Source of the DNA: Nostocoides sp. Soil756
GTDB lineage: Bacteria > Actinomycetota > Actinomycetes > Actinomycetales > Dermatophilaceae
Assembly: GCF_001428065.1 (NCBI RefSeq)
Contig: NZ_LMSE01000002.1
Location: forward strand, 655,521 to 698,663
DNA: 43,143 bases
Reading direction: 5' to 3'
Each line of letters begins with the position of its first letter. Position 1 is the stretch's first letter. Of the stretch, positions 979 through 8,150 are shown piece after piece. The position numbers and the translations under genes are program-made. The notes below the pieces were generated by a model. That model did not search any database, was not told the origin of the DNA, and saw only the letters and a program-made list of their open reading frames with translations.

Positions 979-1518
979 TCAGACGCTGTGGCCCAGGTGC
1001 GCCAGGGCCTGGCGCAGCAGGACCCCGTGGCCGCGGTCCATCTCGGCCTGGATGCCGGGGTCGAGCGCCTGCTGCGGGGTGAGCCAGGTGAGGTCGAGCG
1101 CGTCGTTCTGCGGGGCGCAGTCGCCGGCCACCGGCACCACGAACGCCAGCGACACCGCGTGCTGACGGGGGTCGTGGAACGGGGTGACGCCCGGGGTGGG
1201 GAAGTACTCGGCCACGGTGAACGGCTGCGGGGCCACCGGCACGCGCGGCAGCGCCACCGGCCCGAGGTCCTTCTCGATGTGCCGCAGCAGCGCGTCGCGG
1301 ACCCGCTCGTGGTGCAGCACCCGGCCCGACACCAGCTCGCGGCAGACCCGCCCGTCGGCGTCCAAGCGCAGCAGGACCCCGACCGCGGTGACCTCGCCGC
1401 GGTCGTCGACCCGCACCGGCACGGCATCGACGTAGAGGATGGGCAGCTTCTCGCGCGCCGCGTCGAGCTCCTCCCGGCTCAGCCAGGCGCGGTCGCGGTC
1501 GAGCTCGAGGGGGTTCAT
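979..1518 (-). CDS. Nudix-like DUF4916 protein with degenerate Nudix box
   Basis: This is a 179-residue cytoplasmic protein with the overall Nudix/DUF4916 pattern, including a strand-rich core around VDAVPVRVDDRGEVTAVGVLL. The Nudix box should read GX5EX7REUXEEXGU. Here G65, E71, R79 and G86 are in place, but the two catalytic glutamates are replaced (RHIEKDLG at 79-86 instead of REUXEEXG), so ordinary pyrophosphohydrolase chemistry is doubtful. ATG at 1518 overlaps the stop of the S-component gene by four bases (ATGA), so translation is probably coupled. It is the last gene of the corrinoid ECF operon. Its role there is unknown; processing or sensing of a nucleotide-like ligand is only a guess. 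Confidence 0.8.
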   Translation of the reverse strand: MNPLELDRDRAWLSREELDAAREKLPILYVDAVPVRVDDRGEVTAVGVLLRLDADGRVCRELVSGRVLHHERVRDALLRHIEKDLGPVALPRVPVAPQPFTVAEYFPTPGVTPFHDPRQHAVSLAFVVPVAGDCAPQNDALDLTWLTPQQALDPGIQAEMDRGHGVLLRQALAHLGHSV

Positions 1519-2402
1519 GGAGGCGATTGTGCCAAGTGCCCCGCGGCGCCCCCCGGGGGACGCGCCGCGACCGCGGCATCCGGGCGGTCGTCGAAGACGA
1601 CGGGCGCGTCGAAGGCCGCGCGCCGCGCCGCCCGCCGCAGGGCGCCGAGCACCGGCCGGGCCGTGAGCGAGATGAGCACGACGTTGGTCAGGGCGCGCCC
1701 GAGGTCCCAGCCGAGGCTGGTCGCGAGGCTGAACACGACGAACCGGTGCAGGTTCTCGGGCAGCGGCGCGCCGGGCACGAACGACAGGCCGGTGGCCGCC
1801 CCGGTGGAGAACGGCCAGAACGACAGGTTCAGCAGCATCCCGTAGGCCAGGCCGGCCACCGCGCCGTAGCCCGCGAGCAGCGCGACCTCGCGCCGGCCGG
1901 CGGCCCGCGGGAGCAGCCCGGCACCCCAGCCGACCCACGCCGCCCCGAGCATCTGGAACGGCAGCCACGGCCCGACCCCACCGGTGATGAGGGCGGAGGC
2001 GAACAGGGTGACCGCGCCCTGGACGAACCCGAAGCCGGCGCCGAACACCCGGCCGCCGAGGATGAGCAGGAAGAACACGGTCTCGAGGCCGGCCGTGCCG
2101 GCGCCGAGCGGGCGCAGCGCCGCCCCGACCGCCGACAGCACGCCGAGCATCGCGACCGCCTTGACGTCCATCCCGCCCTCGGCGATCTCGGCCAGCACGA
2201 CCGCGAGCAGCAGGGGCAGGACGAGCGCGAAGACCAGCGGGGCGTCGGTGGAGTGCGCGAGGCCGGAGCCGGGGGTCACCAGCAGCGGCCAGCCGAACGC
2301 CACGATGCCGGCGAGGCTGACCAGCGTGACCGCCGCCGCCGAGCGGGGCCGCAGGGCGATGGCCGTGACCCGCTCGCCCGCCGCCCTGGCCCGGGCGCTC
2401 AC
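1515..2402 (-). CDS. ECF transporter S component, likely corrinoid-specific (CbrT-like)
   Basis: This 295-residue integral membrane protein has about six hydrophobic segments, for example AAAVTLVSLAGIVAFGWPLL, FALVLPLLLAVVLAEIAEGG, GLETVFFLLILGGRVFGAGF and LLAGYGAVAGLAYGMLLNL. The pattern fits S components of energy-coupling factor transporters, which bind the substrate and topple in the membrane. I chose GTG 2402 because it overlaps the ATPase stop by four bases (GTGA); a GTG about 11 codons later is an alternative. Substrate specificity is inferred from the cobalamin riboswitch heading the operon, not from sequence. A roughly 30-residue Pro/Ala-rich hydrophilic tail follows the last membrane segment, which is unusual for small S proteins. 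Confidence 0.82.
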   Translation of the reverse strand: MSARARAAGERVTAIALRPRSAAAVTLVSLAGIVAFGWPLLVTPGSGLAHSTDAPLVFALVLPLLLAVVLAEIAEGGMDVKAVAMLGVLSAVGAALRPLGAGTAGLETVFFLLILGGRVFGAGFGFVQGAVTLFASALITGGVGPWLPFQMLGAAWVGWGAGLLPRAAGRREVALLAGYGAVAGLAYGMLLNLSFWPFSTGAATGLSFVPGAPLPENLHRFVVFSLATSLGWDLGRALTNVVLISLTARPVLGALRRAARRAAFDAPVVFDDRPDAAVAARPPGGAAGHLAQSPP

Positions 2403-4051
2403 GAGGGCACCCGCTGGGGCGCGAGCACCGCGTCCCGGACGTCGGCCACGGTGAGCCACGGGCCTCCGAGCACCTTGGAGACCTGCGGGGCGAAGGCGGG
2501 AGAGGAGACGACGACCTCGGCGGTCGGCCCGTCGGCCACGACCTCACCGGTGGCCATGACCACCACCCGGTCGGCGCACTCGGCGACGAACTCGACGTCG
2601 TGGGTCGACACCACCACCGAACGGCCCCGGGCGGCGAGGTCGCGCAGCGTCGCACTGAGGACGGCCTTGGCGGTGGGGTCGAGGCCCCTCGTGGGCTCGT
2701 CGAGCAGCAGCACCGGCGGGTCGGCGGTGAGCTGCACGGCCAGGACCAGGGCGAGGCGCTGGCCCTCGGACAGGTCGCGGGGGTGGCGGTCGGCCGGGAT
2801 GCCGGGGGCCAGGCGCTCGAGCAGGCCCGCGCCGGTGCCCGCCGGGGCGCCGCTCTCGCGGTCGGCCTGGGCGCACTCGCCGCCCACGGTGTCGAGGTAG
2901 AGCAGGTCGCCGGCGCTCTGCGGCACCAGCCCGACCCGGGCGCGACGGGCGGCGGGGGAGAGTGAGGCCGGGGCGACAGGGGTGCCGCCGGGCCCGGTCA
3001 CCTCGACCCGTCCGCTCGCCAGCCGGCCGCTGCCCTGCAGGGCCCAGAGCAGCGAGGACTTGCCCGAGCCGTTGCGGCCCATGAGGGCCGTGACCTCGCC
3101 GGCGCGCAGCTCGAGGTCGACGCCGGCCACGGCGATGACGTCACCGGGGTGTCGCACCACCACGCCGGCAGCGCGCAACGCCGGCGGCCCGAGGACGGGA
3201 GCATCCCAGGGTGCTCCGGCCGGTGAGCCGTGCAGGCGCTCGCGCAGGTCGCCGGCGGCCCGCCGGGCGTCGCGGACCGACAGCGGCAGCGGCGACCATC
3301 CGGCCCACCGCCCCAGCTCGACCACGGGGGGTGCGATGTCGCTGGTGCGCATGACCTCGGCCGGCAGCCCGTCGTGCACGGTGCCACCGGGAGCGATGTG
3401 CACGACGCGGTCGGCGTGGTGCAGCACCCGCTCGACGCGGTGCTCGGCGACCACCACGGTGACGCCGAGGTCGTGCACCAGCCGGGTGATGGTGGCCAGC
3501 ACCTCCTCGGCGCCGGTGGGGTCCAGGGCCGAGGTGGGCTCGTCGAGCAGGATGACGCTGGGGTGGGCGGTGAGCACCGACCCGATGGCGACCCGCTGCT
3601 GCTGGCCGCCCGAGAGCTCGCGCAGCGGCACCCCACGCAGCTCGGGGATGCCGAGCAGGTCGAGGGTCTCCTCGACGCGCTTGCGCATGGTGGCGGTCGG
3701 CAGGCCGAGCTGCTCCATCCCGTAGGCGAGCTCCTCCTCGACGGTGTCGGTGACGAAGCCGGCGAGCGGGTCCTGGCCCACGACGCCCACGACGTCCGCG
3801 AGGTCGCGGGGGCGGTGGGTGCGCGTGTCCCGCCCGGCCACCACGGCCCGGCCGCGCAGGGTACCGCCGGTGAAGTGCGGGACCCGCCCGCACATCACGC
3901 CGAGCAGGGTCGACTTGCCCGAGCCGGTCCGCCCGACGACCAGCGCCAGCTCGCCCTCGTCGACCACGAGGTCGACGTCGTGCAGCAGCGGGGCCGAGCC
4001 GTCGGCGGGCACGACACCGACGCCGGTGAGGACGATCGCGGGCTCAGCCAC
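2399..4051 (-). CDS. Fused ECF transporter ATPase (EcfA1-EcfA2 in one chain)
   Basis: This 550-residue cytoplasmic protein contains two ABC ATPase domains. The first has Walker A GRTGSGKST (40-48), signature ELSGGQQQR and Walker B VILLDEPTSALD. The second has Walker A GRNGSGKSS, a degenerate signature DLSEGQ and Walker B VLLLDEPTRGLD. In the ECF family two ATPases, usually from separate genes, drive the T and S subunits; a fused form is common in actinobacteria. The GTG start at 4051 overlaps the end of ecfT by eight bases, and the stop overlaps the S-component start. The degenerate second signature suggests asymmetric ATP sites, which is an inference. Confidence 0.93.
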   Translation of the reverse strand: MAEPAIVLTGVGVVPADGSAPLLHDVDLVVDEGELALVVGRTGSGKSTLLGVMCGRVPHFTGGTLRGRAVVAGRDTRTHRPRDLADVVGVVGQDPLAGFVTDTVEEELAYGMEQLGLPTATMRKRVEETLDLLGIPELRGVPLRELSGGQQQRVAIGSVLTAHPSVILLDEPTSALDPTGAEEVLATITRLVHDLGVTVVVAEHRVERVLHHADRVVHIAPGGTVHDGLPAEVMRTSDIAPPVVELGRWAGWSPLPLSVRDARRAAGDLRERLHGSPAGAPWDAPVLGPPALRAAGVVVRHPGDVIAVAGVDLELRAGEVTALMGRNGSGKSSLLWALQGSGRLASGRVEVTGPGGTPVAPASLSPAARRARVGLVPQSAGDLLYLDTVGGECAQADRESGAPAGTGAGLLERLAPGIPADRHPRDLSEGQRLALVLAVQLTADPPVLLLDEPTRGLDPTAKAVLSATLRDLAARGRSVVVSTHDVEFVAECADRVVVMATGEVVADGPTAEVVVSSPAFAPQVSKVLGGPWLTVADVRDAVLAPQRVPS

Positions 4052-5168
4052 GGGTCGTCACCTCCCGCGCGCCGCGGACCGGGCGGCGGGACGCCGGCCG
4101 GGGGGGCTCCGGCGTGAGCAACCCGGGGAGGGCGGCCACCAGCAGGCCGGCCACGGCCAGCAGCGGCAGGGCGGGGACGGCCAGCGGCGACAGCGGCATC
4201 GACAGGGCGTCGGGGGTGGTCCGTGACACGACCACGACCGCGGCCGCCGCGGCCGCCCCGCAGGCGACGGTGAGCCACTCGGCCCCGCGCCAGGGGTCCG
4301 GGCGGTAGGTGGTGCGCTCGACGTGCCGCCCCCCGAGCCACAGCCCGGCCCCCGACAGCAGCAGCCCGACGACGAGGGTGGGCGTCCCCATGAGGGCCGG
4401 GGTCGAGGCGTCCAGGACGCCGTAGAGCCCGACGGCGCACGCCAGCAGGCCGCCCAGGGTGAGGACGCCGGTGCCGACCCGCTGGCCGCCCGGCGCCGCA
4501 GGGGTCCGGCCGTAGCCGCGCGAGTCCATGGCGGCGGCCAGCAGCAGCGAGCGCTCGAGGGTGTCCTCGAGCACCGGGAGCGCCACCGAGGGCAGCGCCC
4601 GCAGACCGCGCGCGGTGTCGCCGCGCAGCTGCCGGGCCCGGTGCACGCGCTGCACCGACTCGGCCAGCTGGGGCGCGACCGAGACCGACACCACCACCGC
4701 CGCGCCGACCTCGTGCAGGGCGCTGGGGAGGGTGCGGAGCAGCCGCTTGGGGTTGGCCAGGGCGTTGGCCGCGCCGATGCACGCGATGATGACGGCGAGC
4801 CGCAGGCCGAGGGTGGCCGCGCCGAGCAGCCCCTCGAGGTAGACGTCGCCGCCGAGCTGGATGCCGGCCGCCCACGACGGCAGGGTGGCCTCCGGCAGCG
4901 GGAACAGCCGCACGGTGCCGAGCTTGAGCCCGACCAGCACGTGCAGCACCACGCGCACCGCGATGATGGCGGCTCCGAGGTAGAGGTAGAGCCGGAAGGC
5001 CCGGGCCCAGGGGGAGGTGCCCCGCCGCGCGGCCACGACGAAGCCCGCCACCGACAGCCCGAGAAGGAGCAGCAGTGGGTTGGTGGTGGTGCTGACCGCC
5101 ACGGCGAGCCCGACCGCCCAGCCCCACCACGCCGCCGGATGGACGGTGCGGGGCACGAGGCGGCTCAC
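4044..5168 (-). CDS. ECF transporter transmembrane T component (EcfT/CbiQ family)
   Basis: This 374-residue membrane protein has N-terminal hydrophobic segments (WWGWAVGLAVAVSTTTNPLLLLLGLSVAGFVVAA). It carries the EcfT coupling motif AMDSRGYGRT, matching the family's x-R-G signature that docks on the ATPases. Two more hydrophobic stretches near the C terminus (VACGAAAAAAVVVVS; LAVPALPLLAVAGLLVAALPGLL) make it longer than a minimal EcfT. Start GTG 5168 lies 12 bases after the stop of the SCO2322-like gene. It would link the S component to the fused ATPase encoded immediately downstream. Confidence 0.9.
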   Translation of the reverse strand: MSRLVPRTVHPAAWWGWAVGLAVAVSTTTNPLLLLLGLSVAGFVVAARRGTSPWARAFRLYLYLGAAIIAVRVVLHVLVGLKLGTVRLFPLPEATLPSWAAGIQLGGDVYLEGLLGAATLGLRLAVIIACIGAANALANPKRLLRTLPSALHEVGAAVVVSVSVAPQLAESVQRVHRARQLRGDTARGLRALPSVALPVLEDTLERSLLLAAAMDSRGYGRTPAAPGGQRVGTGVLTLGGLLACAVGLYGVLDASTPALMGTPTLVVGLLLSGAGLWLGGRHVERTTYRPDPWRGAEWLTVACGAAAAAAVVVVSRTTPDALSMPLSPLAVPALPLLAVAGLLVAALPGLLTPEPPRPASRRPVRGAREVTTRG

Positions 5169-5180
5169 CGCGGCATCATC

Positions 5181-6035
5181 TCAGCCGCGCCGTCGCCACA
5201 CGGTCCAGCCGGCCCCGCCCGCGACCAGCGCGATGAGGGCACCGCCGGCCAGCAGCGGGGTGCCGCCCGGCCCGGCGTCGCCGCTGGTGGGGGCGGAGGC
5301 CACGGCCGTGGGGCCGTCGGTCGGCGTCGCGTCGTCGGTCGGCGACGGGCTCGCGGAGGCGGACCCGGTGGGGGAGGCCGACGGGCTGGGGGTGGCGGTG
5401 GCCGACCGCGACGGGGCGGTGCTGGGGCGCGCGCCGGGGGTGGCGGGGGTGGTGCCGGCCGTCGTCGACCCGGTGGTGGCCCGCGGGGCGGTGGTGGTCT
5501 TGCGCGGGGTGGCCGCGGGCTTCGGGGCCGCGGTGGTGGTGCGCGGCGTCGACGTGGTCTTCGGGGTCGACACCGTGGCGGTGGGGGCGGGCGGGGCGAT
5601 GCGGGGCTGCTGGCCCGACCCGAAGCGCCAGCCCTGGACAGTGCCCGGCTGGGGGTCGTAGCTCCCCGCTCCGGTGCTGCTGTAGCTCCACGAGCCTCCG
5701 CGGGCCGCGTGGTAGTAGGCCCAGTAGGCGGTGGCCGGGGGAGTGCTGTGGCACGGGTCGCTGCTGGGGAAGCCGTTGATCCGGCACACGAACCCCGGCT
5801 GGGTCGCCACCTGGGTGACGCCGAACCCGGCCAGGTTCAGGGCCTGCAACCCGCTCGACGGGTCGCCGGGCGCGCAGGCCGTGACCACCGACGAGCCGGT
5901 GTCGACCACGACCGTCACCCCGCTGGTGCCCGAGCACGCGGCGGCCGCGGCGGGCGCCGCCGCGGCGACGAGCCCGGCCGCGGCCAGGCCCGCCGCCGCG
6001 GCGGCTCCGAGGATGCTGCTGAGCAGGCGCCGCAT
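5181..6035 (-). CDS. SCO2322-family secreted, membrane-anchored protein
   Basis: This 284-residue exported protein has an Arg-led signal sequence ([10 protein letters not shown] followed by an Ala-rich core ending AAPAAAAA). A compact Cys-containing domain spans about residues 35-135, with the family's aromatic motif TAYWAYYHAARGGSWSYSS and VQGWRFG. A long Thr/Pro/Ala stalk follows, then a C-terminal hydrophobic segment (LLAGGALIALVAGGAGW) and WRRRG. The domain pattern matches the SCO2322 family, which sits next to ECF transporters in streptomycetes. ATG 6035 shares one base with the upstream stop (TGATG). It probably sits on the outer face of the membrane at the end of a wall-spanning stalk. 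Binding of a corrinoid or of a partner is inference. Confidence 0.85.
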   Translation of the reverse strand: MRRLLSSILGAAAAAGLAAAGLVAAAAPAAAAACSGTSGVTVVVDTGSSVVTACAPGDPSSGLQALNLAGFGVTQVATQPGFVCRINGFPSSDPCHSTPPATAYWAYYHAARGGSWSYSSTGAGSYDPQPGTVQGWRFGSGQQPRIAPPAPTATVSTPKTTSTPRTTTAAPKPAATPRKTTTAPRATTGSTTAGTTPATPGARPSTAPSRSATATPSPSASPTGSASASPSPTDDATPTDGPTAVASAPTSGDAGPGGTPLLAGGALIALVAGGAGWTVWRRRG

Positions 6036-7654
6036 CAGGCGTGCGCCCCCCGGCGGCGGGAGCCGTAGACGGCCAGGACGCCGACCACGAGGAGCACCAG
6101 GCCGAGGAGCACCGGCAGCAGCGGAGAGGCACCGGTCTGAGCGAGAGCGCCGGTGGGCCCGGCCGCGATGGGGGCCACGGTGTCGCCCGGGTCGGAGCCG
6201 GAGCCGGCCGCGGCGTTCGTGGCCGGTGTGGTCGTGGCCGGCGCCGTCGTCGTGGGGGCGGTGCTGCTCGTCGGCGTGCTGGTCGGGGTGCTGCTGGGCG
6301 CGGCGGCGCAGGCCAGGCTGGGCGCCTGCGCCTCGGCCCCGGCAGCCGTGACCGCCCCGAGGGGGACGCCCGCGAGGGCGAGGAGCCCCTGCGACGTGGA
6401 GCGCCGGTCCTGGTCGGTGGGCAGCGCCCCGGCACCCTTGGCGACCTGAGCGTCGTAGGCGGTGCGGTCGTACGCGATCCCGCCGCGGAGCACCGCCGGC
6501 AGGGCGCAGCCGTACTGGAGCGAGGTGAGGTACCGGACGGCCAGACGCGCCTGGGCGGTACGGCCACCGGCGAGGAAGGCCTGGCCGGCGAGGCCGGTGC
6601 TGTTCGCGTTCAGCGTGGCGGTGAGCCCGGCGCCGGGGACGCCACCGGAGGCGTCCTGGAGGCCGGCGAGGTAGTCGAGGCCGGCCGAGGCCGCGGCGGT
6701 CTGACCTCCCACCGCGAGCAGCGCCTGCACGGCCATCGCGGTGGCGTCGGGGTCGGCGGCGGTGTCGCTCGTGCAGCCGGCGTCGGTCTCGTACAGCTGG
6801 AAGCCGCCACCCGGGCACTGCTGCGCCACGAGGTAGGCGCGGGCCTGCGGGCTGACGGTGACCCCGGCCCGGGTGAGGCCGATGAGCGCGAACGACTGTC
6901 CGAAGGTGTTGGAGTAGTCGCCGTACTGGGACCGGTCGGAGAAGCGGCCGTTGGGCTGCTCGAGGCCCTGCAGGGTCGCCACGAGGTCGGTGCCTCCGAA
7001 GGCGGTGGGGTCGACCCGCTGGGCGACCGCCACGTTGAGCAGCTTGGCCAGGGCCCCGGCGGGGACCTCGTTCGGGTCGCCGAAGCCCAGGTAGTCGACG
7101 AGGTGGTCGGCCAGCGTCCGGGTGGCCGCGGTGGCGGCGTCCTGACCGCTGCCGGCGGCGTCGAGCGCCAGCACGGCGTCCGCGACGAGCCCGTACTGCG
7201 GGTACTCGATGCCGCCGAAGACGATCGGGAGGGTGTACTTCGTGGAGACGAGCTCGCGCTCGAGGTAGTCGGCACCGACCAGGACCGGGTCGGTGGAGGT
7301 GGCGGGGCCGGCGGCCGCGGCGATGCCGTACCGGGCGGTGGCGCCCCCGGGGACGAGGGCCGCGGGGGCCGACGAGCTCGGGCTCGGCGAGGACGTCGAC
7401 GTCCCGCTGGGCGTGGGGGATGCCGTCGCGCTCGGGCCGGGGGAGGTCCCGGTCGGCGTGGCCGACGAGGTCGGCGTCGCCGACGTGGTCGACGACGGGG
7501 TCGGCGTGGCCGACGGTGACGCGGTGGTGGTCGGGGTGCCCGAGGCGGCCGGCGCAGCATCGGCGAACGCCGCCGACGAGGCGCCGACGAGCGCGGCGGA
7601 CACGAACAGAGCACCGAGCGCGCGAGCGCCGGGGCGGAGCGTGGTGGGGGACAT
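6035..7654 (-). CDS. Sortase-anchored alpha/alpha-toroid (prenyltransferase/squalene-cyclase-repeat) surface protein
   Basis: This is a 539-residue exported protein. It has a signal peptide (about 1-30), then a Ser/Thr/Pro stalk (about 31-85). An alpha/alpha-toroid-type region (about 95-420) carries repeated G-rich turns such as [20 protein letters not shown] and [11 protein letters not shown] second Thr/Pro region is followed by LAQTG at 504-508, a hydrophobic helix and RRRGAHA. LAxTG plus helix plus basic tail is the signal used by actinobacterial class E sortases. The toroid is the fold of squalene cyclases but also of the B12-binding domain of animal intrinsic factor and transcobalamin. 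As first gene after a cobalamin riboswitch it is best read as a surface corrinoid-handling protein, not an enzyme. ATG 7654 follows AGGAAGG; an in-frame upstream ATG at 7696 lacks such a site. Confidence 0.83.
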
Positions 7655-7670
7655 GGGGCCTTCCTGCAGC

Positions 7671-7694
7671 GGTTCGGTGACGAATGCCCGAACC
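7671..7694 (-). promoter_or_regulatory. Hairpin next to the toroid-gene ribosome binding site
   Basis: On the minus strand GGTTCGG (7694-7688) and CCGAACC (7677-7671) form a perfect 7-bp stem with a 10-base loop. It ends just before the AGGAAGG site of the gene starting at 7654. It could be part of the expression platform that couples the riboswitch to ribosome access. No U-tract is present, so translational control is more likely than termination. Confidence 0.5.
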
Positions 7695-7759
7695 ACCGGG
7701 AGGACCCGGCATCTCGGGCTCCGTCCCGCATTCCTCGACGGGTGTGTGGAGCCGCTCGC

Positions 7760-7876
7760 GCCTGGCAGGCATTCCGACTTGCCACCCCGAGGGGCGACCT
7801 ACGGCTGCGGGACAGTGCCGGAGTTGGACCGGCTTCCCCCACCAAGTGCGTGTGGTGCCGCCCCTGAGGGCGACGC
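7760..7876 (-). ncRNA. Cobalamin riboswitch (AdoCbl class)
   Basis: Read on the minus strand, the region has the hallmark conserved core AAGCCGGTCCAACTCCGGCA followed by CTGTCCCGC (7835-7807). After a variable arm comes the 3' conserved block GTCGGAATGCCTGCC (7778-7764), matching the riboswitch consensus (AAGCCGGTGCAAxTCCGGCAC, CCCGC, AGTCxGGAxxCCTGCC). It starts about six bases after a -10-like TAGCAT and ends about 105 bases before the ATG of the surface-protein gene. In this RNA family ligand binding normally lowers expression of B12 uptake genes, so the operon should be on when cobalamin is scarce. Confidence 0.93.
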
Positions 7877-7881
7877 CGGTG

Positions 7882-7887
7882 ATGCTA
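7882..7887 (-). promoter_or_regulatory. -10 element of the corrinoid operon
   Basis: Minus-strand TAGCAT lies directly upstream of the riboswitch, so transcription would begin close to its 5' stem. The -35 region (CCGACC-like) is weak. Confidence 0.45.
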
Positions 7888-7929
7888 CCCCCTCCGCACC
7901 TCGGTCGGGTACCGGGCGTGCGCCGCCGC

Positions 7930-7941: not shown

Positions 7942-8150
7942 ACAGGCGTTCGAGCCGTCATCAGCGGCGAGCCTCCGGAAGAACGGGAACGGTCCTCGGG
8001 CCGGTCCTCACTAGACCCGGACGTCGGGGTCACGTCACGACCTGGTGCAAGAGCGGCCGCCCCCCGGGCGGCAAGCGAGGTGGTACCGCGGTGGTGCCCC
8101 GGCCGGAGGTCGGGAGCCGTCGTCCTCGTCCCCACGAGTCGACGACCCGC
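7942..8150 (+). ncRNA. Isoleucine T-box leader, ultrashort stem I
   Basis: The T-box proper GAGGTGGTACCGCGG is at 8077-8091. Upstream, a short stem I closes by CGTTC/GAACG pairing and presents ATC (Ile) at 7960-7962 in a purine-flanked specifier loop (GTCATCAGCGGCGAGC). This compact arrangement is the ultrashort-stem type known from actinobacterial ileS leaders, which act on translation. No run of Ts follows. The ATG at 8166 is preceded by AGGAG. Uncharged tRNA-Ile should favour ileS expression. Confidence 0.93.

Follow-up and report, generated by a model that had tools for sequence, protein, structure and literature searches.

Operon layout, importer and riboswitch

A cobalamin riboswitch and six minus-strand open reading frames (ORFs) behind it lie in the stretch of DNA analysed here, the window: 43,143 nt of Nostocoides sp. 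Soil756 (contig NZ_LMSE01000002.1, here C2, positions 655521-698663; genome 3.47 Mb). The genes encode, in order, a secreted alpha/alpha-toroid protein (alpha), an SCO2322-like protein (beta), the EcfT subunit, a fused EcfA pair and the S component of an energy-coupling factor (ECF) importer, and a DUF4916/NUDIX protein (Table 1). Adjacent genes overlap by 1 to 8 nt, the sole exception being a 12 nt gap before EcfT. An earlier reading of the DNA letters alone, the original prediction, had described this riboswitch and these six packed genes; both were borne out, the riboswitch above the Rfam gathering threshold, and the prediction as a whole was confirmed in part. We consider it likely that the operon specifies a two-subunit, surface-held, transcobalamin-like corrinoid trap that feeds a dedicated ECF importer.

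Table 1. Coordinates of the operon features in the window and of related streptomycete toroid genes.
Feature	Position	Strand	Evidence
Cobalamin riboswitch aptamer RF00174, operon leader	7747..7861	-	Rfam 42.7 bits, gathering 31.5
Alpha subunit, secreted alpha/alpha-toroid protein, 539 aa	6035..7654	-	SCO2321_fam 102 bits (cut-off 300); toroid profile A9; L024 toroid model
Toroid domain of alpha, as used in alignments	6347..7279	-	alignment A9
LAQTG sortase-type motif, then hydrophobic stretch and RRR	6131..6145	-	read from translation; models below cut-off
Beta subunit, SCO2322-like, 284 aa	5181..6035	-	SCO2322_fam 27.7 bits (cut-off 85)
Transcobalamin-beta-like (SLBB/DUF4430-like) domain	5586..5939	-	
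EcfT, CbiQ-type transmembrane coupling subunit	4044..5168	-	PF02361 35.4 bits (cut-off 25)
Fused EcfA-EcfA' ATPase pair	2399..4051	-	ABC_tran in two stretches; ECF_ATPase and CbiO models
S component, predicted corrinoid-specific membrane subunit	1515..2402	-	PF12822 26.6 bits, below 30.7
DUF4916/NUDIX protein, last gene of run	979..1518	-	DUF4916 281.3 bits; NUDIX 23.0 (cut-off 21.1)
Divergent streptomycete toroid genes behind riboswitch-like sites, no anchor	L066:1346-3115, L070:1422-3050, L050:1318-2820	-	

Relatives were gathered through the S component. Searching plasmids by tblastn gave no match with the toroid and four records with EcfA. The S-component alignment A1 comprises four sequences, that of the window and three plasmid relatives reached via EcfA, and its profile found at least 592 matching stretches in genome contigs, 537 of them encoding a relative. 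The best 80, all from Actinomycetota as judged by record title, together with the window and four plasmid loci make up a set of 85 loci (L numbers). Genes were mapped with hidden Markov models seeded with the window and plasmid proteins and run on stop-to-stop ORFs; related genomes are counted as independent throughout.

The importer core is conserved as a unit. EcfT, two EcfA ATPase domains and the S component stand together in one operon, in the same order in relatives. EcfT exceeds the CbiQ cut-off and ABC_tran matches the ATPase chain twice, as expected of the predicted EcfT and fused EcfA pair. The S component occupies the operon place proposed for it and has a PF12822-type match that falls short of the Pfam cut-off. 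Each of the four A1 members matches PF12822 with E no higher than 1, the best at 9.9e-9; in the search for kinship with CbrT, the A1 profile drew nothing from the PDB up to E 10. The last gene, the Nudix-like protein of the original prediction, does match DUF4916 and NUDIX, but we dropped it as a part of the system. Relatives detected with phmmer occur in only 13 of the 85 loci, next to the S gene in 10 of those 13, in a set where some loci include little downstream sequence. It is a lineage-specific passenger.

Gene order ties the surface proteins to the importer. In 71 loci EcfT is present with 2 kb or more of sequence upstream of it. Of these, 66 have a beta gene, short forms included, within 1 kb 5' of EcfT on the same strand (not L006, L032, L039, L053 and L065), and 61 have an alpha gene anywhere in the locus. 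Wherever both stand 5' of EcfT, alpha precedes the last beta (55/55).

Riboswitch-like sites accompany these clusters across the set. We scanned 1.48 Mb with a consensus derived from an alignment of seven aptamers, which match it by construction; this gave 87 sites, against zero in five dinucleotide shuffles. Seventy S-component clusters have 700 nt or more of upstream sequence, and in 63 of them a site lies no farther than 700 nt ahead of the first domain; the other seven are L006, L010, L031, L039, L060, L073 and L076, and L060 holds a site inside the cluster. Separate alpha/beta clusters have a site of their own in seven of nine cases, so a toroid or beta gene sited away from the importer usually comes with a riboswitch of its own. 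Three sites each are present in L053 and L071. A single-sequence fold of the window's leader gave no clear switch. Beside the operon on the plasmid of Streptomyces sp. SAT1 lies a metE gene with its own cobalamin riboswitch (80.2 bits; L005:8639-11349).

The surface proteins and their likeness to B12 carriers

Alpha is built as a secreted, probably wall-held protein. It comprises a signal peptide, Ser/Thr/Pro stretches, the toroid and a C-terminal sorting signal in which LAQTG precedes a hydrophobic stretch and RRR. The predicted LAQTG motif is thus present, although the sorting models stay below cut-off (LPXTG_anchor 15.1 bits against 15.9; LAXTG model 24.8 against 65), as does the match to SCO2321_fam. 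The query P0001 drew no PDB match up to E 1, and P0001 and P0002 each found one irrelevant family in Pfam at E up to 10. The toroid profile A9 does match squalene-hopene cyclases (E 4.1e-33); the closest solved toroids are these and drimenyl diphosphate cyclases, followed by glycosidase-type toroids.

That kinship raises the idea that the toroid is a secreted enzyme, of terpene-cyclase or glycoside-hydrolase type, whose association with B12 uptake is incidental. The original prediction had named intact cyclase or prenyltransferase catalytic residues, together with a lack of corrinoid binding, as a refutation of corrinoid capture; the DxDD motif is missing at its equivalent place in all 45 aligned toroids, D.DD occurring elsewhere in three rows. 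The toroid is moreover secreted, and a riboswitch stands 5' of its gene even apart from the importer (L028, L048, L054, L066 and L071). An enzymatic role is, in our judgement, highly improbable.

Beta is a stalked protein with a beta-grasp domain of predicted transcobalamin type. Its 284 residues form a signal peptide, this domain, a Thr/Pro-rich stalk and a C-terminal hydrophobic membrane segment. The SCO2322-type stalked protein foreseen earlier is recognizable in the stalk and the SCO2322_fam match, though the latter misses the curated cut-off. Fold comparison suggests a resemblance to B12 carriers. In a profile-profile alignment by hhalign with 16 DUF4430 domains, the beta profile gave probability 82.7 and E 9.6e-6 over 92 columns. 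As to a beta-hairpin insert behind the helix, a trait of the transcobalamin-like SLBB clade, the model predicts a helix at 30-36 and then strands at 41-43 and 51-54. Both surface proteins had been called wall-anchored. The first carries LAQTG, but the second shows no evident LPXTG (its GVDTG-model score of 18.3 bits is under the cut-off of 29) and ends in a hydrophobic segment, so one wall-anchored and one membrane-anchored protein appear more likely from the sequences.

Short beta forms match only about positions 67-122 of the 124-position profile. This YRYWSFW-type, C-terminal half occurs in 16 loci, 10 of them from Streptomyces: L033, L036, L037, L042, L058, L059, L061, L064, L067, L073, L076, L079, L080, L083, L084 and L085. 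Such forms possibly bind in a different mode.

Some relatives join the two halves in one chain. We found 14 alpha-beta fusion ORFs without an intervening stop, 12 beta-first and two alpha-first. Seven of the beta-first fusions are from Streptomyces; these 12 carry one to three toroid matches, and that of L027 runs off the record. In L018, alpha-first, a sorting-type signal lies between the domains. The L024 chain runs from signal peptide through toroid, beta domain and stalk to a membrane anchor, the order of transcobalamin, with a riboswitch 5' of it.

The L024 fusion links the toroid to B12 carriers through structure prediction. AlphaFold2 models were made from one alignment each. The fusion was modelled on alignment A5, in which beta is represented by 19 of 76 rows, as toroid rows were misplaced under several other selections; toroid rows cover 90% of the toroid and beta rows 97% of the beta region. 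The model (predicted local distance difference test score 91.1, predicted template-modelling score 0.77) presents the domain homologous to the window's as a toroid. In Foldseek, transcobalamin or intrinsic factor takes its ranks 1-9 and 11-15, over 469-488 columns at E 2.7e-9 to 3.5e-7.

A toroid, as judged from the L024 model, and a transcobalamin-type beta-grasp domain appear to be common to the window and to transcobalamin and intrinsic factor. The window proteins have no sequence-level match to animal B12 carriers. Transcobalamin, intrinsic factor and haptocorrin are one alpha-then-beta chain, whereas in the window each half is a protein of its own with a separate anchor; among the fusions the animal order is reversed in 12 of 14 and kept in L024 and, with its internal signal, in L018.

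A proposed surface trap feeding the importer

We propose that the two surface proteins work as half-sites. Toroid protein and LAQTG signal would make up an alpha half, presumably fixed to peptidoglycan by sortase, and the SCO2322-like protein a beta half held by the membrane on its stalk beside the importer. Cobalamin or another corrinoid would sit outside the cell between them, on the model of transcobalamin and intrinsic factor, which hold their ligand between alpha and beta domains. From there it would pass to the S component, for import together with the EcfT/EcfA motor. When corrinoid is plentiful in the cell, the riboswitch would lower expression of the whole set. The evidence in hand consists of a conserved riboswitch match, the order of the genes, the fold likeness of beta, the toroid fold of a relative, the fusions and host gene content. 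These lend partial support to the surface relay of the original prediction; from them we infer corrinoid binding, the sandwich, the hand-over, sortase anchoring and repression by B12.

Several observations weigh against this proposal. Considered alone, the toroid is nearest to terpene cyclases, both by its profile and in the VIA comparison of the L024 fusion, and transcobalamin is absent among the matches listed for the profile (60 of 73). VIA on the fusion likewise gave toroid proteins only, with no transcobalamin among the 50 matches listed, which we read as one domain filling the list. The L024 model superposes poorly on whole transcobalamin (root-mean-square deviation 22-25, query template-modelling score 0.35-0.41), so its predicted domain arrangement differs from the closed, ligand-bound animal form. 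Beta had no Foldseek match at E 0.001 or better and the window's beta no direct match to Pfam DUF4430; its profile A6 found five antibody chains in the PDB (E 0.072-3.9) and not transcobalamin. Alpha is absent from 10 of the 71 loci. Whole-genome searches for nine of these (all but plasmid L006) turned up a clear alpha at another place in five, with E 3.7e-26 or below, and a weak match in one (E 3.2e-4); the remaining three gave no match. A gathering-level Rfam riboswitch stands at the operon front in only 10 of 19 other loci (2/4, 4/8 and 4/7). Finally, CbiC is present in 16 of 48 genomes with full-length beta.

The uneven distribution of alpha suits a different division of labour, in which the operon serves corrinoids but beta alone delivers to the S component and the toroid handles another corrinoid form, a carrier or the wall. 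Beta is the nearer to EcfT wherever both precede it, is the more constant of the two and stands without an alpha match in those three whole genomes; PDB entry 5np4 is the human transcobalamin beta domain by itself with cyanocobalamin. Against such separate roles speak the 14 fusions, in both orders, and how common the alpha-beta operon order is, and we think them unlikely.

Host gene content bears on the cargo. The Nostocoides genome lacks any CbiC match, CbiC being a core step in making the corrin ring, and has one NrdJ-type ribonucleotide reductase above cut-off (612.8 bits). Its second cobalamin riboswitch (82 bits; L001:1501-1713, C2:864953-865165) lies directly 5' of a ribonucleotide reductase gene whose product matches the NrdJ model below cut-off; the above-cut-off NrdJ is on another contig. 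This arrangement looks like B12-dependent reductase switching.

Absence of CbiC accompanies full-length beta across relatives. We sorted 119 family genomes by beta class: 48 full-length (best match covering at least 84 of 124 profile positions), 38 short C-terminal only, one partial (G503) and 32 without beta. CbiC is absent from 32/48, 11/38, 0/1 and 8/32 of these, respectively. Full-length beta against the 71 others, with G503 (CbiC present) placed among them, gives Fisher p 2.6e-5, uncorrected for kinship. Short beta is not enriched in CbiC-less genomes, so the enrichment is valid for full-length beta only. It fits scavenging, though not exclusively.

The same content bears on cobalt. Cobalamin riboswitches control cobalt uptake genes too, and EcfT and EcfA resemble CbiQ and CbiO of cobalt transporters; the operon, under B12 regulation, could then import cobalt or a different cofactor precursor, which the surface proteins would bind in place of a corrinoid. 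Yet no CbiM or CbiN was matched by Pfam among the six operon proteins, the beta domain resembles that of B12 carriers, and in a host without a CbiC match free cobalt would not yield B12. We regard this cargo as quite improbable.

The surface trap may itself be one stage of a longer path. Twelve ORFs encode a soluble beta, ending within 18 residues after the domain, and eight a soluble single toroid, ending within 14; all have a hydrophobic stretch before the domain and no membrane-like stretch in the last 60 residues. Five loci hold both forms (L040, L048, L053, L054 and L071). Twelve riboswitch-like sites are tied to no S-component or alpha/beta cluster; six of them, in streptomycete loci, face away from the operon, as does the tied site in L066. 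Of five streptomycete genes scanned behind outward-facing sites, three encode a toroid ending in a DUF4430 match below the cut-off of 23.8 bits (L066 14.2, L070 16.3, L050 15.2), candidates for soluble transcobalamin-like proteins beside the anchored system; those in L068 and L081 gave no match, the chosen ORF possibly being in the wrong frame. These soluble ORFs, the five loci with both, the triple sites in L071 and L053 and the divergent toroid genes led us to a tentative extension, possible rather than probable: a staged, haemophore-like extracellular B12 relay in actinomycetes, in which free alpha and beta (a "corrinophore") would pass corrinoid to wall-anchored alpha and membrane-held beta and on to the ECF importer, each unit being controlled by a separate cobalamin riboswitch.

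Known systems and neighbouring sequences

Bacterial relatives of human B12 carriers had, as far as we found, been predicted only, and in other groups. Burroughs et al. (2007, PMC1796856) defined the SLBB superfamily and proposed that bacterial proteins combining a toroid with SLBB (DUF4430), secreted or wall-anchored, scavenge B12; their operons contain CbiO/CbiQ and sometimes a second SLBB protein, and their owners usually lack key B12 synthesis enzymes. Their toroid may lie on either side of the beta domain, and all these traits are shared with the present system. For the transcobalamin-like clade the paper names low-GC Gram-positives, planctomycetes and, less often, euryarchaea; the word riboswitch does not occur there. 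The window's beta is unrecognised by Pfam DUF4430.

Characterized importers share the ECF logic. ECF-CbrT of Lactobacillus delbrueckii is likewise ECF-type and linked to B12 use, its gene lying in an nrdJ-cbrS-cbrT-pduO cluster, and the available text describes no extracellular capture protein, in keeping with the predicted surface arm beyond CbrT (PMC5997447). The SCO2321/SCO2322 NCBIfam pair is a related gene pair with weak profile matches in the window and plasmid relatives. BtuG, a Gram-negative lipoprotein, belongs to a separate system. This gut Bacteroides protein is reported to capture B12 at the surface as well and to work with a transporter (PMC6143338).

The operon family speaks to how thick-walled bacteria bring large, scarce B12 to the membrane. 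We found no experimental study of these actinomycete proteins among the matches listed from the open-licence literature. The analysis extends prior knowledge to an actinomycete branch unseen by Pfam. It also adds the division between two proteins that are anchored separately, the systematic control by riboswitches, the existence of soluble copies and the association with absent corrin synthesis. The family is widespread in actinomycetes; its two halves are separate, seem to be regulated by B12 and go with one importer, which makes corrinoid binding, assembly and hand-over individually testable on small soluble domains. It also suggests a function for SCO2321/SCO2322-like families and provides simple cousins for studying the origin of animal B12 carriers.

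Two features flank the operon. At about 8079-8095 of the window, 5' of an isoleucyl-tRNA synthetase-like gene, stands AGGTGGTACCGCG, which we likened by eye to the T-box core; the suspected T-box was rejected, as Rfam returned none at E up to 1. On the other side, the interval between a methyltransferase-like gene and the operon end contains, at 786-985, imperfect inverted repeats and short direct repeats rich in G+C, with units of 27 and 45 nt.

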